DNA from: Cupriavidus basilensis
Lineage (GTDB): Bacteria > Pseudomonadota > Gammaproteobacteria > Burkholderiales > Burkholderiaceae
Assembly (NCBI RefSeq): GCF_008801925.2
Contig: NZ_CP062803.1
Coordinates: 2,542,001 to 2,606,000 of the forward strand
Direction: 5' to 3'
DNA: 64,000 nt
Part shown: positions 2,701 through 6,551 of the stretch, piece by piece
Layout of the letters: each line of letters begins with the position of its first letter
Numbering within the stretch: position 1 is the stretch's first letter
Made by a program: the position numbers and the translations under genes
The notes under the pieces: generated by a model
The model's database searches: none
What the model was told of the DNA's origin: nothing
Seen by the model: only the letters and a program-made list of their open reading frames with translations

Positions 2701-4782
2701 CTAGCGCGGGTTGGTGGATATCTGCACCATGTCGGCACCGATGTGGCTTTCTCCGTGCTTCGCCGCCATCGGACCCAGTTGCCTGTCGAGCGCGCGCAGG
2801 TAGTCCTGCCTGGGCTCTGACTCGGGGCGCAGCGCGTCGAACAGCGGCGCAGGCGTGGTGAGCAGCACGATCAACTCCGTGCCGAACGGCTTCGAGATCA
2901 CCCAGTCCCCGAGGCTGCCCACGGCAGCGGTGTAGCTGGCGGGTGCCTGGTTGGCCTTGGCACGCTGGCTTGGCACCATATGCACGACCTTGCCATCGGC
3001 CATGTAGTAGTCGACGTAGACGTAAGTGTCGTAAGGCGGCGTCGTGATATCCACGATCAGTGGCGTTCCCTCCGTGAGTTGCGCGCCGGGCGCTCGGGTG
3101 TGGATCGTGGTCAGCGCGGTTGCGCTGCGGCGCCCCGACCAGTAAGGCGAGATCAGCTTGACCACGTCGCACTTGTCATCGCCCAGCGTCTGCACGTCCA
3201 GGTTCAGCGTCTGCACGCCGGGCACTGCGCCCAGTTCGTCTTTCAGGCGCTTGATGCCAAAGCGCTCCGCCACGTAGCCACGCACCTGCAGTACATGGCC
3301 CTGCCCGGTGGCCGACAGCAGCGAGCAAGGCGCGCGTGCCAGCACCGGCGCCACGGCCTGCATGGAGAGCGCGCGCTCGGGCCGGGCTTGCTCCCTCGGT
3401 TGCGCCAGCGGCGGCGACCCCGGCGCGGCGGATGGCGTCACTGCGGCTTGGGGCGTGGCGGATACCACCGCGCTTGCCGAGGATTGCGCGGCAGGCTGCC
3501 GGCCCTCCTGCGCGGTGCGCGCGCGCCACACGTAGTAACCCAGCCCGCCGGCCAGCAGCACGCCGGCCACGGACGCGGCGCCCAGCTTGGCCATTGGCAT
3601 GCCACCGTGGCGCTCGGCGCCCATCTCGGCCAGGAAGCGCGCCACGGTAGGCGTGCGCGTCGCGCGATCGAAAGACAGCGCCGCGCGCAGTGCTCGCCAC
3701 TGCCCGCGGCTGAGCACCTTGGGGCGCTGTGGCTTGAGGCCGGCGCCGCGCGCCTGGTTAGCCGACAGACGCTCATAGGGGTGCCTGCCGGTCAGCAGTT
3801 CATAGGTCACGCAAGCCAGCGCGTAGATGTCGTCGCGCGGATCCGGCTCCCGATGCTCGAACATCTCGGGGCTGGCATAGGCGGGGGTCATGCCACCGAG
3901 CGTCCCCGGGTCGAACACGGTCGGGTCCGCGTCGTCCGCCGGTTGCTGGAAGACGCGCGCGATACCGAAATCGATCACCTTCACTTCGCCGCTATCGGTG
4001 AGGAAGACATTGGCGGGCTTGAAGTCGCAGTGGACGAAGCCGCGCTCGTGCGCATAAGACAAAGCCCGGCCCATGCCGGTGATGATCGGCAGCGCCTTGG
4101 CGTAAGGCATGCCGGCAAAGTCTGGCGCGCGCAAGACACGATTGAGCGACTTGCCCGACAGGTACTCCATGGTCAGGTAGACCACCGAGCCATCGCGGTC
4201 GAAGTCATAGACCGTCACGATATTGCGGTGCGCCAGCGTCTGCGCCTTGCGCGCCTCGCGCTGCAGCGCGATCAGCGATTTCGGATGACCGCGGAACTGC
4301 ACATTGAGAACCTTGATGGCGATGTACGGCTTGCGGTCCGAGGCCTCGAGCTTGCGCAGATCGAGCGCCTTGTAGACCGTTCCCATGCCGCCCACGCCCA
4401 GGCACTCCTCCAGCACGAAGCGGCCATTCAAGGTATCGCCCACCCCTTTGGTCTGCTCCGCCCCGGCAATTGCCTGATCGCTCGTGCTCGGCTGCCGTGG
4501 CGGGGAGGGCGTGGACGCCATGCCGGCGTGGCCAGTCTGCACACGGGTTTCCTCGCCGCCATCCTCGAACTGGGTTGCCCCGCGGCGCTCGATGCGCCGC
4601 AACACCTCTTCATAAACGCCAGGCGGCAGCGGGAAGCGGGTGTTCTCCTCGCTGAGCATGTCCGCTAGCTGCGTGGCGCTCGCCTGGTCCGCGGCCAAGG
4701 TGCTGTCAATGCGGGCCAACAGTTCGTCGTGCGACAGACCACCGCTTTGGAAGGTACGTATCAGGTCTGGAATGCTAGGCAT
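2701..4782 (-). CDS. Membrane Ser/Thr protein kinase (PknB type) with extracytoplasmic DUF4384-like domain
   Basis: 693 residues using the ATG at 4782 (MPSIPDLIRTFQSGG); an upstream ATG at 4878 adds an unconvincing 32-residue tail. A short N-terminal segment (~1-110) precedes a Hanks-type kinase domain (~120-385): glycine loop LGVGGMGTVYKA, IAIKVLN (Lys157), FVHCDFKPANVFL, VIDFGIAR and YASPEMFE. The Arg of HRD is Cys, so it is a non-RD kinase. One membrane segment lies at ~401-418, then an Ala/Pro-rich spacer and a C-terminal region with TYVYVDYYMADGKVVHMVPS, resembling DUF4384. The catalytic part should be cytoplasmic and the C-terminus outside. It ends beside the caspase-like gene and diverges from the small-protein cluster; kinase, caspase-fold and DUF4384 modules do co-occur in bacterial signalling loci. 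Targets are unknown. Confidence 0.85.
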   Translation of the reverse strand: MPSIPDLIRTFQSGGLSHDELLARIDSTLAADQASATQLADMLSEENTRFPLPPGVYEEVLRRIERRGATQFEDGGEETRVQTGHAGMASTPSPPRQPSTSDQAIAGAEQTKGVGDTLNGRFVLEECLGVGGMGTVYKALDLRKLEASDRKPYIAIKVLNVQFRGHPKSLIALQREARKAQTLAHRNIVTVYDFDRDGSVVYLTMEYLSGKSLNRVLRAPDFAGMPYAKALPIITGMGRALSYAHERGFVHCDFKPANVFLTDSGEVKVIDFGIARVFQQPADDADPTVFDPGTLGGMTPAYASPEMFEHREPDPRDDIYALACVTYELLTGRHPYERLSANQARGAGLKPQRPKVLSRGQWRALRAALSFDRATRTPTVARFLAEMGAERHGGMPMAKLGAASVAGVLLAGGLGYYVWRARTAQEGRQPAAQSSASAVVSATPQAAVTPSAAPGSPPLAQPREQARPERALSMQAVAPVLARAPCSLLSATGQGHVLQVRGYVAERFGIKRLKDELGAVPGVQTLNLDVQTLGDDKCDVVKLISPYWSGRRSATALTTIHTRAPGAQLTEGTPLIVDITTPPYDTYVYVDYYMADGKVVHMVPSQRAKANQAPASYTAAVGSLGDWVISKPFGTELIVLLTTPAPLFDALRPESEPRQDYLRALDRQLGPMAAKHGESHIGADMVQISTNPR

Positions 4783-5215
4783 CGATGCAGCCACGACGTG
4801 ATTGCGCGAAGTTGCGCATTGAGCGCCCACTCGCCCGTCTACAGCGAGTACCTGCCCACGATGGATACTAGTGCGCACTCACGCCAATCGCAAACCCCTC
4901 GTGCTTTGCACCAACGCCGGCAAGCCACGCCAGCGGCACGATGGCGCCGCAAGAGTCGCTGCCTGTCGCACATGCGCGAACACCCGGTGTTGTTGTGTTG
5001 GCCGCCGCCCATCAGATCCAGGCCACCCCGGACCGCCTGCTGGCACGTCTTTTCCGGCTCGATAAATTTTTTCCCCAGGCCCCGCCTGCGTTTGCGGGCG
5101 ATCTGCGATGGCATGGCCCGCCTTGGCACACTCCATGCGTTTGTACCTCCCGAGCGCAGCACAGATGCTCAACCCAAATGAACCCAAGTCCCAATCGCTC
5201 CCAAGGAGAACTGCC
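4783..5215. other. Divergent region between the kinase gene and the small-protein cluster
   Basis: 433 bases with no supported gene. It must contain the kinase promoter (minus strand) and the promoter of the small-protein operon (plus strand). An AT-rich patch around 5058-5075 (cgataaattttttcc) is the most promoter-like spot on the plus strand, about 145 bases before the first small gene, but no clear -35 accompanies it. Open frames crossing this stretch lack ribosome sites and recognisable protein character. Confidence 0.45.
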
Positions 5216-5315
5216 ATGACTACCATCCTCGCCATCAAGGACCTGTCGGTCACCGAAGAACTCGACACCCGCGCCATGCGCGCCGTGCGCGGCGGCTTCG
5301 TGCCCTTCATGCCTG
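5205..5315 (+). repeat. Direct repeat, copy 1 (111 bp, identical to 5521-5631)
   Basis: Reading both copies side by side, the 111 bases from the ribosome site ggagaa through codon 33 of each small protein are identical, and the sequences diverge on either side of the block. The copies start 316 bases apart. The identity covers synonymous positions, so this is either a recent tandem duplication with a diversified cargo end or a segment kept identical by gene conversion. Confidence 0.9.
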
Positions 5316-5473
5316 TCTTCAGCTCGGTCAAGCTCGACTCGACCTTCAACGCCTCGCAGCTGATCGGCCAGACCCAGAACGTCGTGAACATGAACGGCAA
5401 CAACGCCGCCTTCGTGACCGACATCAAGTCCCATGTCGACTCGACGCAAAACGCCACCAACAACATCTACTGA
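5216..5473 (+). CDS. Small Gly-Gly-leader protein 1, Asn-rich cargo
   Basis: 85 residues from the ATG at 5216, chosen because an AAGGAGAA ribosome site lies 5 bases upstream and because the same start is used by the paralogue at 5532. The first 27 residues (MTTILAIKDLSVTEELD...AMRAVRGG) look like a double-glycine leader: an ELD/LxxxE-type amphipathic stretch followed by VRGG. The remaining 58 residues (FVPFMPVF..., GQTQNVVNMNGNN, TQNATNNIY) are rich in Asn, Gln, Ser and Thr, contain no cysteine and no membrane segment. First of four such genes in a row. Function is not recognised; secreted peptide, bacteriocin-like or surface-fibre subunit are all possible. Confidence 0.8.
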   Translation: MTTILAIKDLSVTEELDTRAMRAVRGGFVPFMPVFSSVKLDSTFNASQLIGQTQNVVNMNGNNAAFVTDIKSHVDSTQNATNNIY

Positions 5474-5520
5474 GCCGCGGGCCACGCCCCAAGCCGAATT
5501 CGCCATCCACTGAATACCCC

Positions 5521-5631
5521 GGAGAACTGCCATGACTACCATCCTCGCCATCAAGGACCTGTCGGTCACCGAAGAACTCGACACCCGCGCCATGCGCGCC
5601 GTGCGCGGCGGCTTCGTGCCCTTCATGCCTG
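5521..5631 (+). repeat. Direct repeat, copy 2 (111 bp, identical to 5205-5315)
   Basis: Second copy of the repeat covering the ribosome site, the start codon and the whole leader-coding part of the second small gene. It begins ggagaactgccatgac. Downstream of position 5631 the two genes remain clearly related in protein but differ in DNA. Confidence 0.9.
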
Positions 5632-5789
5632 CCTTCAGCCTGACCAAGATCGACTCGACCTTCAATGCCCAGCAGCTGATCGGCCAGACGCAAAACGTCG
5701 TCAACATGAACGGCAACAACACCGCCTTTGCCGACGACATCAAGTCCCACGTGACGTCGACCCAGAACGCCAGCAACAACATCTATTGA
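5532..5789 (+). CDS. Small Gly-Gly-leader protein 2, paralogue of protein 1
   Basis: 85 residues, same length as its neighbour at 5216. The leader through VRGG is identical in protein and DNA; the cargo differs at about a quarter of positions (for example FMPAFSLTKIDSTFNAQQ) while keeping LIGQTQNVVNMNGNN, IKSHV and the C-terminal NNIY. The ribosome site GGAGAA precedes the ATG by 5 bases. Lies 58 bases after protein 1 and probably on the same transcript; a 7-bp inverted repeat (5809-5815/5821-5827) follows it. No cysteine, so disulfides, lanthionines and formylglycine are all ruled out in the product. Function unknown. Confidence 0.8.
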   Translation: MTTILAIKDLSVTEELDTRAMRAVRGGFVPFMPAFSLTKIDSTFNAQQLIGQTQNVVNMNGNNTAFADDIKSHVTSTQNASNNIY

Positions 5790-5889
5790 ATGGTCCCGGC
5801 ACCGGCAAGAGGCGGTCCCGCCGCCTCCGCTGCCAGCCAGGACCCGCCATTTCCAGCGATCAAGTCAAGTGAAGTCTAGGAGAACCATC

Positions 5890-6153
5890 ATGTCATCCAT
5901 CATCGTGCGCGACCTCGCCCTTAACCAAGACCTCGACAGCAAGTCCCTGGCCGAGGTGCGCGGCGGCAATTCCTGGTTGCAAGGACTGGGCCCGGTGGCC
6001 AACGTCAATGTCAACGTCAACCAGAACATCGCCCAGCTACAGAGCATCAACGTAAACACGCTCAACAACGTCGGCGTGATCGGCTCCGGCTTCGGCCCGC
6101 TGAGCATCGACGTCAACCCGTCGCAGTGGGCCGCAACCCACGCCGCGGTCTGA
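5890..6153 (+). CDS. Small Gly-Gly-leader protein 3, Asn-Val repeat cargo
   Basis: 87 residues from the ATG at 5890, preceded by TAGGAGAACC. The leader (MSSIIVRDLALNQDLDSKS LAEVRGG, split here for length) follows the same plan as proteins 1 and 2: Ile-rich start, (K/R)DL, xDLD, hydrophobic, VRGG. The cargo is distinctive: NVNVNVNQNIAQLQSINVNT followed by NNVGVIGSGFGPLSIDVNP, an alternating Asn/hydrophobic pattern that suggests a beta-strand or beta-solenoid structure. No cysteine. The leader is related to those of its neighbours but the cargo is not, which is the usual picture for leader-directed export. Function unknown. Confidence 0.75.
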   Translation: MSSIIVRDLALNQDLDSKSLAEVRGGNSWLQGLGPVANVNVNVNQNIAQLQSINVNTLNNVGVIGSGFGPLSIDVNPSQWAATHAAV

Positions 6154-6332
6154 GCGAGATGCGCCCCGCTCCGTGGGAACCCAAGGGTTTCCACGGCTGT
6201 TGCGCACGAGCTGGCACTGCCCCGGAGGTAAAACCCGTGGCCTATACTGATCTGGCTGGGCTTGCCGCATCGCGCGCACCCACCCGGCGAGCCCCGGCCA
6301 AGCCGGCCTTCGCCACCCTGCAGGAGGAAGTC

Positions 6333-6551
6333 ATGGCCGTCATCGTCATCAAGGATTTGCCCGACAGCGTGGATCTCGACAGAGAAGCCATGGTGGCAAT
6401 CACAGGCGGCGCGAGAACGCGCGCCGGTCATGCATGGACGTCGCGCAAGCTCGGGGGATCCTTGCGCGTCATCAGCTATCCGGAGGGCTTTCCAGGCCAA
6501 CCGCTGGCAGGCACGCAGTCGCGGCCGGCCGGGGACATCAAGCGCAAGTAA
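6333..6551 (+). CDS. Small Gly-Gly-leader protein 4, basic cargo
   Basis: 72 residues from the ATG at 6333, which has the best ribosome site of the group (CAGGAGGAAGTC). The leader MAVIVIKDLPDSVDLDREAM ends VAITGG, so it keeps the IKDL and DLD features and the Gly-Gly but lacks the Arg before Gly-Gly found in the other three. The cargo (ARTRAGHAWTSRK...DIKRK) is short and strongly basic, unlike the Asn-rich cargoes upstream. It lies 179 bases after protein 3, so it may have its own promoter. A hairpin follows at 6592. Function unknown; a basic cargo is compatible with an antimicrobial or nucleic-acid-binding peptide, but that is a guess. Confidence 0.65.
   Translation: MAVIVIKDLPDSVDLDREAMVAITGGARTRAGHAWTSRKLGGSLRVISYPEGFPGQPLAGTQSRPAGDIKRK

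Follow-up and report, generated by a model that had tools for sequence, protein, structure and literature searches.

Four small tandem genes in a Cupriavidus basilensis genome very probably encode the substrates of one dedicated export system. The genes occupy positions 5216-6551 of the 64,000-nucleotide (nt) stretch analysed here, which we call the window (contig NZ_CP062803.1, positions 2542001-2606000), and their products share a leader that ends in Gly-Gly (GG) and precedes a cargo region. This assignment is drawn from sequence, gene order and co-occurrence, and it concerns export by this machine, not the function of what is exported. The exporter genes lie in the adjoining stretch L007 (contig positions 2523001-2542000), directly left of the window. 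Genes 1 and 2 are referred to as class A, gene 3 as class B and gene 4 as class C; their window positions and the lengths of their products in amino acids (aa) are as follows.

5216-5473, + strand: peptide gene A1 (gene 1), 85 aa, leader MTTILAIKDLSVTEELDTRAMRAVRGG, Asn-rich cargo
5532-5789, + strand: peptide gene A2 (gene 2), 85 aa, 88% identical to A1
5890-6153, + strand: peptide gene B (gene 3), 87 aa, Asn-Val cargo with a core homologous to that of A
6333-6551, + strand: peptide gene C (gene 4), 72 aa, leader of the type common to A and B, basic unrelated cargo

The four genes follow one another on the same strand with gaps of 58, 100 and 179 nt, and each is preceded by a Shine-Dalgarno-like site, judged by eye. 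Three of the leaders end in VRGG and one in ITGG, and Cys is absent from all four products, as the original prediction had described. In the leader consensus, V, M and L stand at positions -4, -7 and -12 relative to GG, respectively; hydrophobic residues at these three positions are characteristic of double-glycine leaders. None of the four products matched a Pfam or NCBIfam family above its cut-off, and the gene 3 product gave a sub-threshold match to Pfam Bacteriocin_IIc (double-glycine leader) over residues 15-37 (12.4 bits against a cut-off of 27.1, E 0.17). A protein search with gene 2 returned 24 proteins from 24 candidates (E up to 10), mostly from Cupriavidus, which are called hypothetical or uncharacterized where they are named; a few lack the full leader as deposited. 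No longer homologue carrying the leader within a larger folded domain was seen in searches that spanned 0.55-1.75 times the query length and in scans of open reading frames (ORFs) of up to 250 or 130 aa, and the class A profile found 0 matches in the PDB at E up to 1. The AlphaFold model of the gene 2 product contains a single helix (residues 7-25) just before GG and a cargo without regular structure, at low confidence (predicted local distance difference test, pLDDT, 68; predicted template modelling score, pTM, 0.27), and the model of the gene 3 product (pLDDT 46, pTM 0.17) is too uncertain to read.

Among 61 genomic regions that hold the transporter described below, 59 contain a classified leader peptide; the remaining two are L042, at a contig end, and L098, where none was found by the pattern used. 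Because of this conservation and because the ratio of nonsynonymous to synonymous differences (pN/pS) is below 1 within the classes, we ruled out chance ORFs, and the same comparisons indicate that genes 1-4 are real, conserved and share a Gly-Gly leader. The pN/pS values within classes A, B, C and E were 0.18-0.78 for the leaders and 0.22-0.40 for the cargoes (pairs were sampled, and those outside 75-97% identity or near saturation were skipped). The value of 0.78 for the class A leader arises because pS is unusually low there, not because pN is high. Leader and cargo pS are 0.098 and 0.287 in class A and 0.135 and 0.342 in class C, with no such gap in class E; gene conversion of the leader could explain the low pS in A, but C is single-copy.

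We collected 335 distinct leader ORFs of 57-109 aa, excluding those that contained X; they share a GG-terminated leader of ~26 residues. Hidden Markov models assigned 186 of them to class A, 38 to B, 48 to C, 10 to D and 51 to E; the 2 unclassified ones look spurious. We compared the cargo profiles after removal of the leaders, using at most 60 sequences per class and 40 column shuffles for each comparison, and obtained scores of 29.6 for A-B, 29.2 for A-E and 32.5 for B-E (probability 76-85%; maximum shuffled score 15.6), while C against A, B and E, and D against A, B and E, were not distinct from the shuffles. Classes A, B and E have a common core, Q-x-I-x-Q-x-Q-x-V with surrounding Asn, and their cargoes consist of 13-17% Asn and 6-8% Gln with few charges. 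The original prediction of unrelated cargoes therefore stands for gene 4 and falls for the others: genes 1 and 2 are near-copies, and the profile comparison shows their cargo to be homologous to the gene 3 cargo, which leaves gene 4 alone without a related cargo.

The original prediction also stated that the window contains no C39 peptidase or ABC (ATP-binding cassette) exporter. This may be so, but the genome has such an exporter just left of the window, which was missed because the window ends too early. The machinery and extra peptide genes span 1.1 to 14 kb past the left window edge; together with the kinase gene inside the window, they are as follows.

L007:15633-17147, - strand: outer-membrane channel
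L007:12828-15470, - strand: FHA protein with two FHA stretches, one hydrophobic segment (386-404) and a long tail
L007:11477-12862, - strand: HlyD adaptor
L007:10615-11394, - strand: rotamase
L007:7535-10594, - strand: transporter, 1019 aa, with two cyclic nucleotide (cNMP)-binding stretches, Peptidase_C39, ABC_membrane and ABC_tran by Pfam
L007:6142-7464, - strand: sigma54 activator
L007:5336-6112, + strand: PP2C phosphatase
L007:4939-5226: class E leader peptide, found by profile
Contig 2540346-2540916: second copies of A1 and A2 in inverted orientation, 1.1 kb from the left window edge
Window 2701-4782, - strand: Ser/Thr protein kinase with a C-terminal DUF4384 stretch (26.6 bits, Pfam cut-off 27), start inferred

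A gene-neighbour check for a C39-type transporter thus found one beside the peptide genes. The C39 domain aligns with that of PCAT1 with the Cys in place (the column reads A in two of the five PDB rows, which we take as mutant entries). Cys317, His390 and Asp406 of the transporter, presumably the catalytic residues, are invariant in 13 of 13 transporters. An exporter with a C39 peptidase, an HlyD adaptor, an outer-membrane channel and a rotamase adjoining the peptide genes, and the co-occurrence described next, argue for the leader-directed export that had been proposed.

Transporter and peptides are found in the same genomes. The transporter was present in 50 of 60 same-genus genomes in one copy each (E up to 1e-150), and the peptide profile A2, built from 27 class A sequences with one truncated 57-aa sequence left out, also matched 50 of the 60 (E up to 0.01); the ten genomes without the transporter are identical to the ten without an A2 match. 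The class C profile (A3) matched 51 of 60, with exactly one strong match (E <= 2.4e-25) in each of the 50 transporter-bearing genomes and, in the extra genome (G016), a weak partial match that covers positions 22-70 (E 0.003) and has no leader. When applied to its own genome, profile A2 gave eight matches at E up to 5, the eighth of which (E 0.49, with an internal stop) was taken as chance. Seven leader peptides, namely four of class A and one each of B, C and E, lie there within 20.6 kb (2527939-2548551).

Beyond the genus, the transporter was found in 41 of 150 genomes drawn from the same family, representing 7 of 25 genera with its own included (E up to 1e-200), and in 5 of 166 genomes at the class level, its own again included (E up to 1e-180), three of them at 36-38% identity. 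A scan of named genomes, from which the best 80 of 281 relatives were kept as the basis of all counts on named loci, brought up Cupriavidus, Paraburkholderia, Caballeronia, Noviherbaspirillum, Herbaspirillum, Aromatoleum, Trinickia and metagenome-assembled genomes, as well as records labelled Burkholderia sp. and Ralstonia sp. These searches indicate that similar gene sets exist in many related bacteria. A plasmid search gave 3 Caballeronia records; the region examined in one of them carries no annotation.

The peptide genes are also linked to the exporter by their upstream sequences. The following site lies 92 nt before gene 1.

5124-5138, + strand: sigma54-type -24/-12 site TGGCACACTCCATGC, 9 of 10 consensus positions

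The inverted copy has the same site at L007:18008 on the - strand, and the class E peptide has one at L007:4853 (9/10). For each peptide gene, we scored the preceding 130 nt against TGGCAC-N5-TTGC, which we take to be the sigma54 consensus, requiring GG and GC at the right spacing. The 61 regions contain 91 genes that are first in their run and not of class C, one of which lacks 130 nt of upstream sequence (n=90); the score was 9 in 79 of these, 8 in 8 and lower in 3, and 81 of the 87 sites with scores of 8-9 are placed 86-98 nt before the ATG. Later genes in the runs reached 9 in 1 of 90 cases and 8 in 2, and random ATGs of the same regions, with the true sites kept in, reached at least 9 in 62 of 7320 cases and at least 8 in 322. 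In the 80 named loci, which share many species with the 61 regions, 120 of 123 first genes scored at least 8 and one further gene did not have enough sequence. In all 80 named loci the gene directly after that of the transporter encodes an activator 71-97% identical to the one here, whose sequence contains GAFTGA, presumably the motif of such activators. In L056 and L065, where class A was not found, a 9/10 site is still kept before the channel gene, which suggests that expression of the exporter genes, too, is driven from the left-hand site. A sigma54 regulator described in Burkholderiaceae (PMC9088363) appears to concern another gene region.

The kinase follows the transporter across genera. 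A kinase match was obtained in 45 of the 61 regions, and three of the 16 negatives are incomplete regions. Thirty-one genomes of other genera are transporter-positive, and in the 16 of these that were searched a kinase homologue was found every time (E < 1e-60); the match starts from residue 103 in G159 and is in two pieces in G074. In five of the 16 the kinase is unlinked, being on another contig (G152) or ~100-160 kb from the transporter (G087, G159, G180 and G135). No full-length homologue was found in 16 transporter-negative genomes, ten from the genus and six from the family (E up to 1e-20), and transporter-negative G067 gave a match to the kinase domain only (121-338, E 7e-33). No other evidence ties the kinase to the system as strongly as this pattern of presence and absence.

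While the exporter is kept, the cargo is not constant. Six regions (L056, L065, L067, L068, L070 and L073) have class C, and neither A nor B was found at the site by the pattern used. Searches of three of the six corresponding genomes, G014, G023 and G059, gave 12, 19 and 15 peptide matches, respectively, on several contigs, class C and weak matches included. The swapped-cargo peptides have the leader MSLTIQNLPLEQDLDHAKMGAVRGG, or one near it, followed by a different cargo, and a 9/10 sigma54-type site lies 82-88 nt before the first gene of their arrays. The genome searches indicate that in these three Cupriavidus genomes the cargo changes while the leader type, the promoter and the single transporter stay. 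In-frame stops in some class A matches were taken as natural ends because several such peptides end a few residues earlier. A leader-peptide array with Gly-rich cargo, of class D or similar, was observed at L058:15111-17507 (G037), and such arrays also occur on other contigs of G014, G023 and G059; they stand in place of A and B or in addition to them. In G058, an A-B pair and more matches to the leader only are located ~0.75-0.95 Mb away from the exporter.

The remaining features of the locus are as follows.

4976-5786: inverted repeat, window arm, 812 bp, 98.9% identity, with the other arm at L007:17346-18157
L007:18333-18773: first DUF4399 protein, the one of the pair for which Pfam DUF4399 is shown
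1-243, - strand: second DUF4399-type protein, 5' part, with the 3' part at L007:18818-19000
666-2675, + strand: protein with caspase-like (Peptidase_C14) and FGE-sulfatase domains, with a probable signal peptide; the ORF is open from 519 and the start is inferred

Both arms of the repeat carry A1, A2 and the promoter and flank a central segment. Inverted arms of at least 280 bp were found in 36 of 58 regions examined; they are more than 95% identical in four other regions (L039, L040, L043 and L064) and 72-93% identical in the remainder, which suggests recent homogenisation in some species. Flipping of the central segment between the repeats was rejected, as the DUF4399 genes are -, the FGE gene + and the kinase gene - relative to the transporter wherever found. 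The two DUF4399-type proteins are similar to each other (a 205-bp stretch is 85% identical) and are neighbours of the peptide genes in 59 of 61 regions. In this species group and several other genera the FGE protein has its caspase-like domain ahead of the FGE domain, and in most Cupriavidus regions the best match is to the C-terminal FGE part only.

We propose that the activator would switch on the peptide operons and, acting at the left-hand site, also the genes of the exporter that come after it on the same strand; the C39 domain would then bind the leader helix and cut after GG, and the unfolded cargo would pass from the transporter through HlyD to the channel. The kinase, the phosphatase and the FHA protein may gate the machine by Thr phosphorylation, in the manner of PpkA, PppA and Fha in type VI secretion, and the cNMP domains may have a role in the exporter as well. 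In mycobacteria, Rv1747 offers a precedent for an ABC transporter that a Ser/Thr kinase controls through FHA. Outside the cell the cargoes could be structural or form a surface layer, as EbfG1-4 do in Synechococcus biofilms. By this analogy we give a matrix or surface-layer role somewhat under an even chance and consider a signal or an antagonist less likely; it is favoured because near-copies are kept, the A, B and E cargoes are rich in Asn and Gln, the gene 2 cargo is predicted to lack regular structure, no gene lies between the peptides, and the system is similar to PteB-EbfG. The full picture is that of a type I exporter, widespread in Burkholderiales, that is activated through sigma54, is gated by Thr phosphorylation and lays down an extracellular layer of unstructured Asn/Gln-rich small proteins, the cargo being swapped between genomes on a constant leader type, promoter and machine; this picture is possible as a whole and is put forward tentatively.

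The mature cargoes might instead be class II microcins or bacteriocin-like antagonists of related bacteria, as Gly-Gly leaders and C39 exporters are typical of these (PMC3140520). The weak Bacteriocin_IIc match of gene 3 (12.4 bits against 27.1), the small and basic gene 4 product and the turnover of cargo between genomes would also fit, and the DUF4399 pair, kept in 59 of 61 regions, might conceivably confer immunity. We consider such a role unlikely, since no gene fits into the gaps of 58, 100 and 179 nt between the peptides, purifying selection acts on the cargo within classes, the genome retains near-identical extra copies, and the A, B and E cargoes are rich in Asn and Gln and carry little charge. 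A further possibility, to which we give a low but real probability, is that the peptides are secreted as signals which the producer itself senses, for example through the kinase. This reading draws on HetC, an exporter with cNMP and C39 domains that is needed for cell differentiation and whose cNMP domain binds ppGpp (PMC10986499), and on class C, which has exactly one strong match per transporter-bearing genome in all 50, including genomes where neither A nor B was found next to the exporter. Cargoes of ~60 residues in several copies would, however, be unusual for pheromones. A histidine kinase encoded near the cluster had a match in 1 of the 80 named loci, within the sequence covered, and thus is no general partner.

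A chemical modification of the cargo before export, for example by the FGE-domain protein, would make the products precursors of ribosomally synthesised and post-translationally modified peptides (RiPPs). A caspase/FGE match is present in 58 of 61 regions and the rotamase is distantly similar to TIGR04500 'peptide maturation' (100 bits against a cut-off of 180), but the four products have no Cys and the FGE protein, with its probable signal peptide, is hardly likely to encounter the precursor ahead of export. Among the 12 non-peptide proteins scanned with Pfam, the whole extent of this search, there was no LanM, radical-SAM, YcaO or graspetide enzyme, nor was any other maturase recognised, the FGE-domain protein apart; the leader-directed modification that the original prediction offered beside export is thus not borne out, and we regard a RiPP pathway as improbable. 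We rate lowest, as highly improbable, a coincidental Gly-Gly motif in cytosolic proteins, with the exporter serving other substrates. The evidence for export of the cargo is genomic, which leaves some room for this explanation; against it stand the coinciding presence of peptides and transporter in 50 of 60 genomes and their shared lack in the other 10, the common sigma54-type sites with the activator beside the exporter, and the leader type kept through cargo swaps.

Several further observations weigh against a dedicated exporter of surface-layer proteins as we propose it. Class C genes do not share the promoter (of 44 scored, none reaches 9 and one reaches 8), and one function for all cargoes is doubtful because gene 4 has no sigma54 site and a basic, unrelated cargo. 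The AlphaFold models of A and B are of low confidence, the beta-alternation signal is weak (mean z 0.65 for A, 1.54 for B, 1.02 for E and -0.58 for C), and no Pfam amyloid family (curlin, Fap) was matched by the four products at E up to 10. No classified peptide was found in 10 of the 80 named loci and in 2 of the 61 regions. Ten of the 80 named loci lack a match to the HlyD and FHA proteins of this genome; since 7 of these ten (mostly Noviherbaspirillum) were covered 10 kb upstream, the adaptor there is elsewhere or too different. The 50/10 agreement represents fewer than 60 independent events because the genomes are related, and the membrane location of the kinase is not sure because the hydrophobic stretch between its domains (401-419, mean 1.56) is just under the scan threshold of 1.6.

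The peptides match no Pfam or NCBIfam family above cut-off, yet peptides and exporter are present in 50 of 60 genus genomes. The system joins the principle of GG-leader/C39 export with a control set known from type VI secretion, and it provides different, naturally occurring cargoes behind one type of leader, with each step tied to a gene that can be deleted in a laboratory strain. A literature search, mostly outside subscription papers, yielded no description that we recognised of this system or of its combined features.

The best reading of the system is that of a Burkholderiales relative, by architecture, of the cyanobacterial exporters with a long C39 transporter of the PteB-EbfG type. Its export core resembles the cyanobacterial group I/II 'bacteriocin' clusters, which have an N-terminal cNMP (CAP_ED) domain with C39 and ABC, an HlyD protein, a SurA-like rotamase and small GG precursors nearby (PMC3140520); this is a likeness of architecture alone, and we do not claim membership. 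The system described here differs from them in its two cNMP stretches, the linked outer-membrane channel, the sigma54 activator with sigma54-type sites, and the kinase/FHA/PP2C set; 'TolC' and 'kinase' have 0 occurrences in the main text of PMC3140520. In Synechococcus elongatus, PteB-EbfG1-4 comprises four small GG proteins encoded in one operon, as here, and the peptidase Cys of PteB is needed for efficient secretion; there are several cargoes, whose roles are partly redundant (PMC4997328, PMC9981879). Biofilm there requires the four GG proteins, which PteB helps to export (PMC4997328), and a heterologous test showed amyloid formation by EbfG1-3 (PMC9981879). Biofilm and amyloid were thus shown for EbfG, whereas the present system is known from its genes, and the regulation of the two differs. 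HetC of Nostoc has the same order of cNMP, C39 and ABC domains; according to PMC10986499, it differs in having one cNMP domain, which binds ppGpp in vitro and is needed, and in that no membrane-fusion protein gene or GG precursor was found near hetC.

The NHLP/NHLM bacteriocin export systems (TIGR03796, TIGR03794) likewise combine a C39 ABC exporter with HlyD. We rejected membership in this group, as the transporter scored 552 bits against a cut-off of 853 and HlyD 69 against 156, and the peptides have no family match above cut-off. The control genes are reminiscent of type VI secretion, where PpkA, Fha and PppA form a threonine phosphorylation pathway, so that a Ser/Thr kinase, an FHA protein and a PP2C phosphatase surround a secretion machine as they do here, and where sigma54 activators are known too (PMC10482370). 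The machine here, unlike that of type VI secretion, is a type I exporter, and no structural parts of type VI secretion were seen among the 12 non-peptide proteins scanned. If the tentative picture of a gated, layer-forming exporter is right, the system would be a proteobacterial counterpart of the cyanobacterial EbfG system with PpkA/Fha/PppA-like control.

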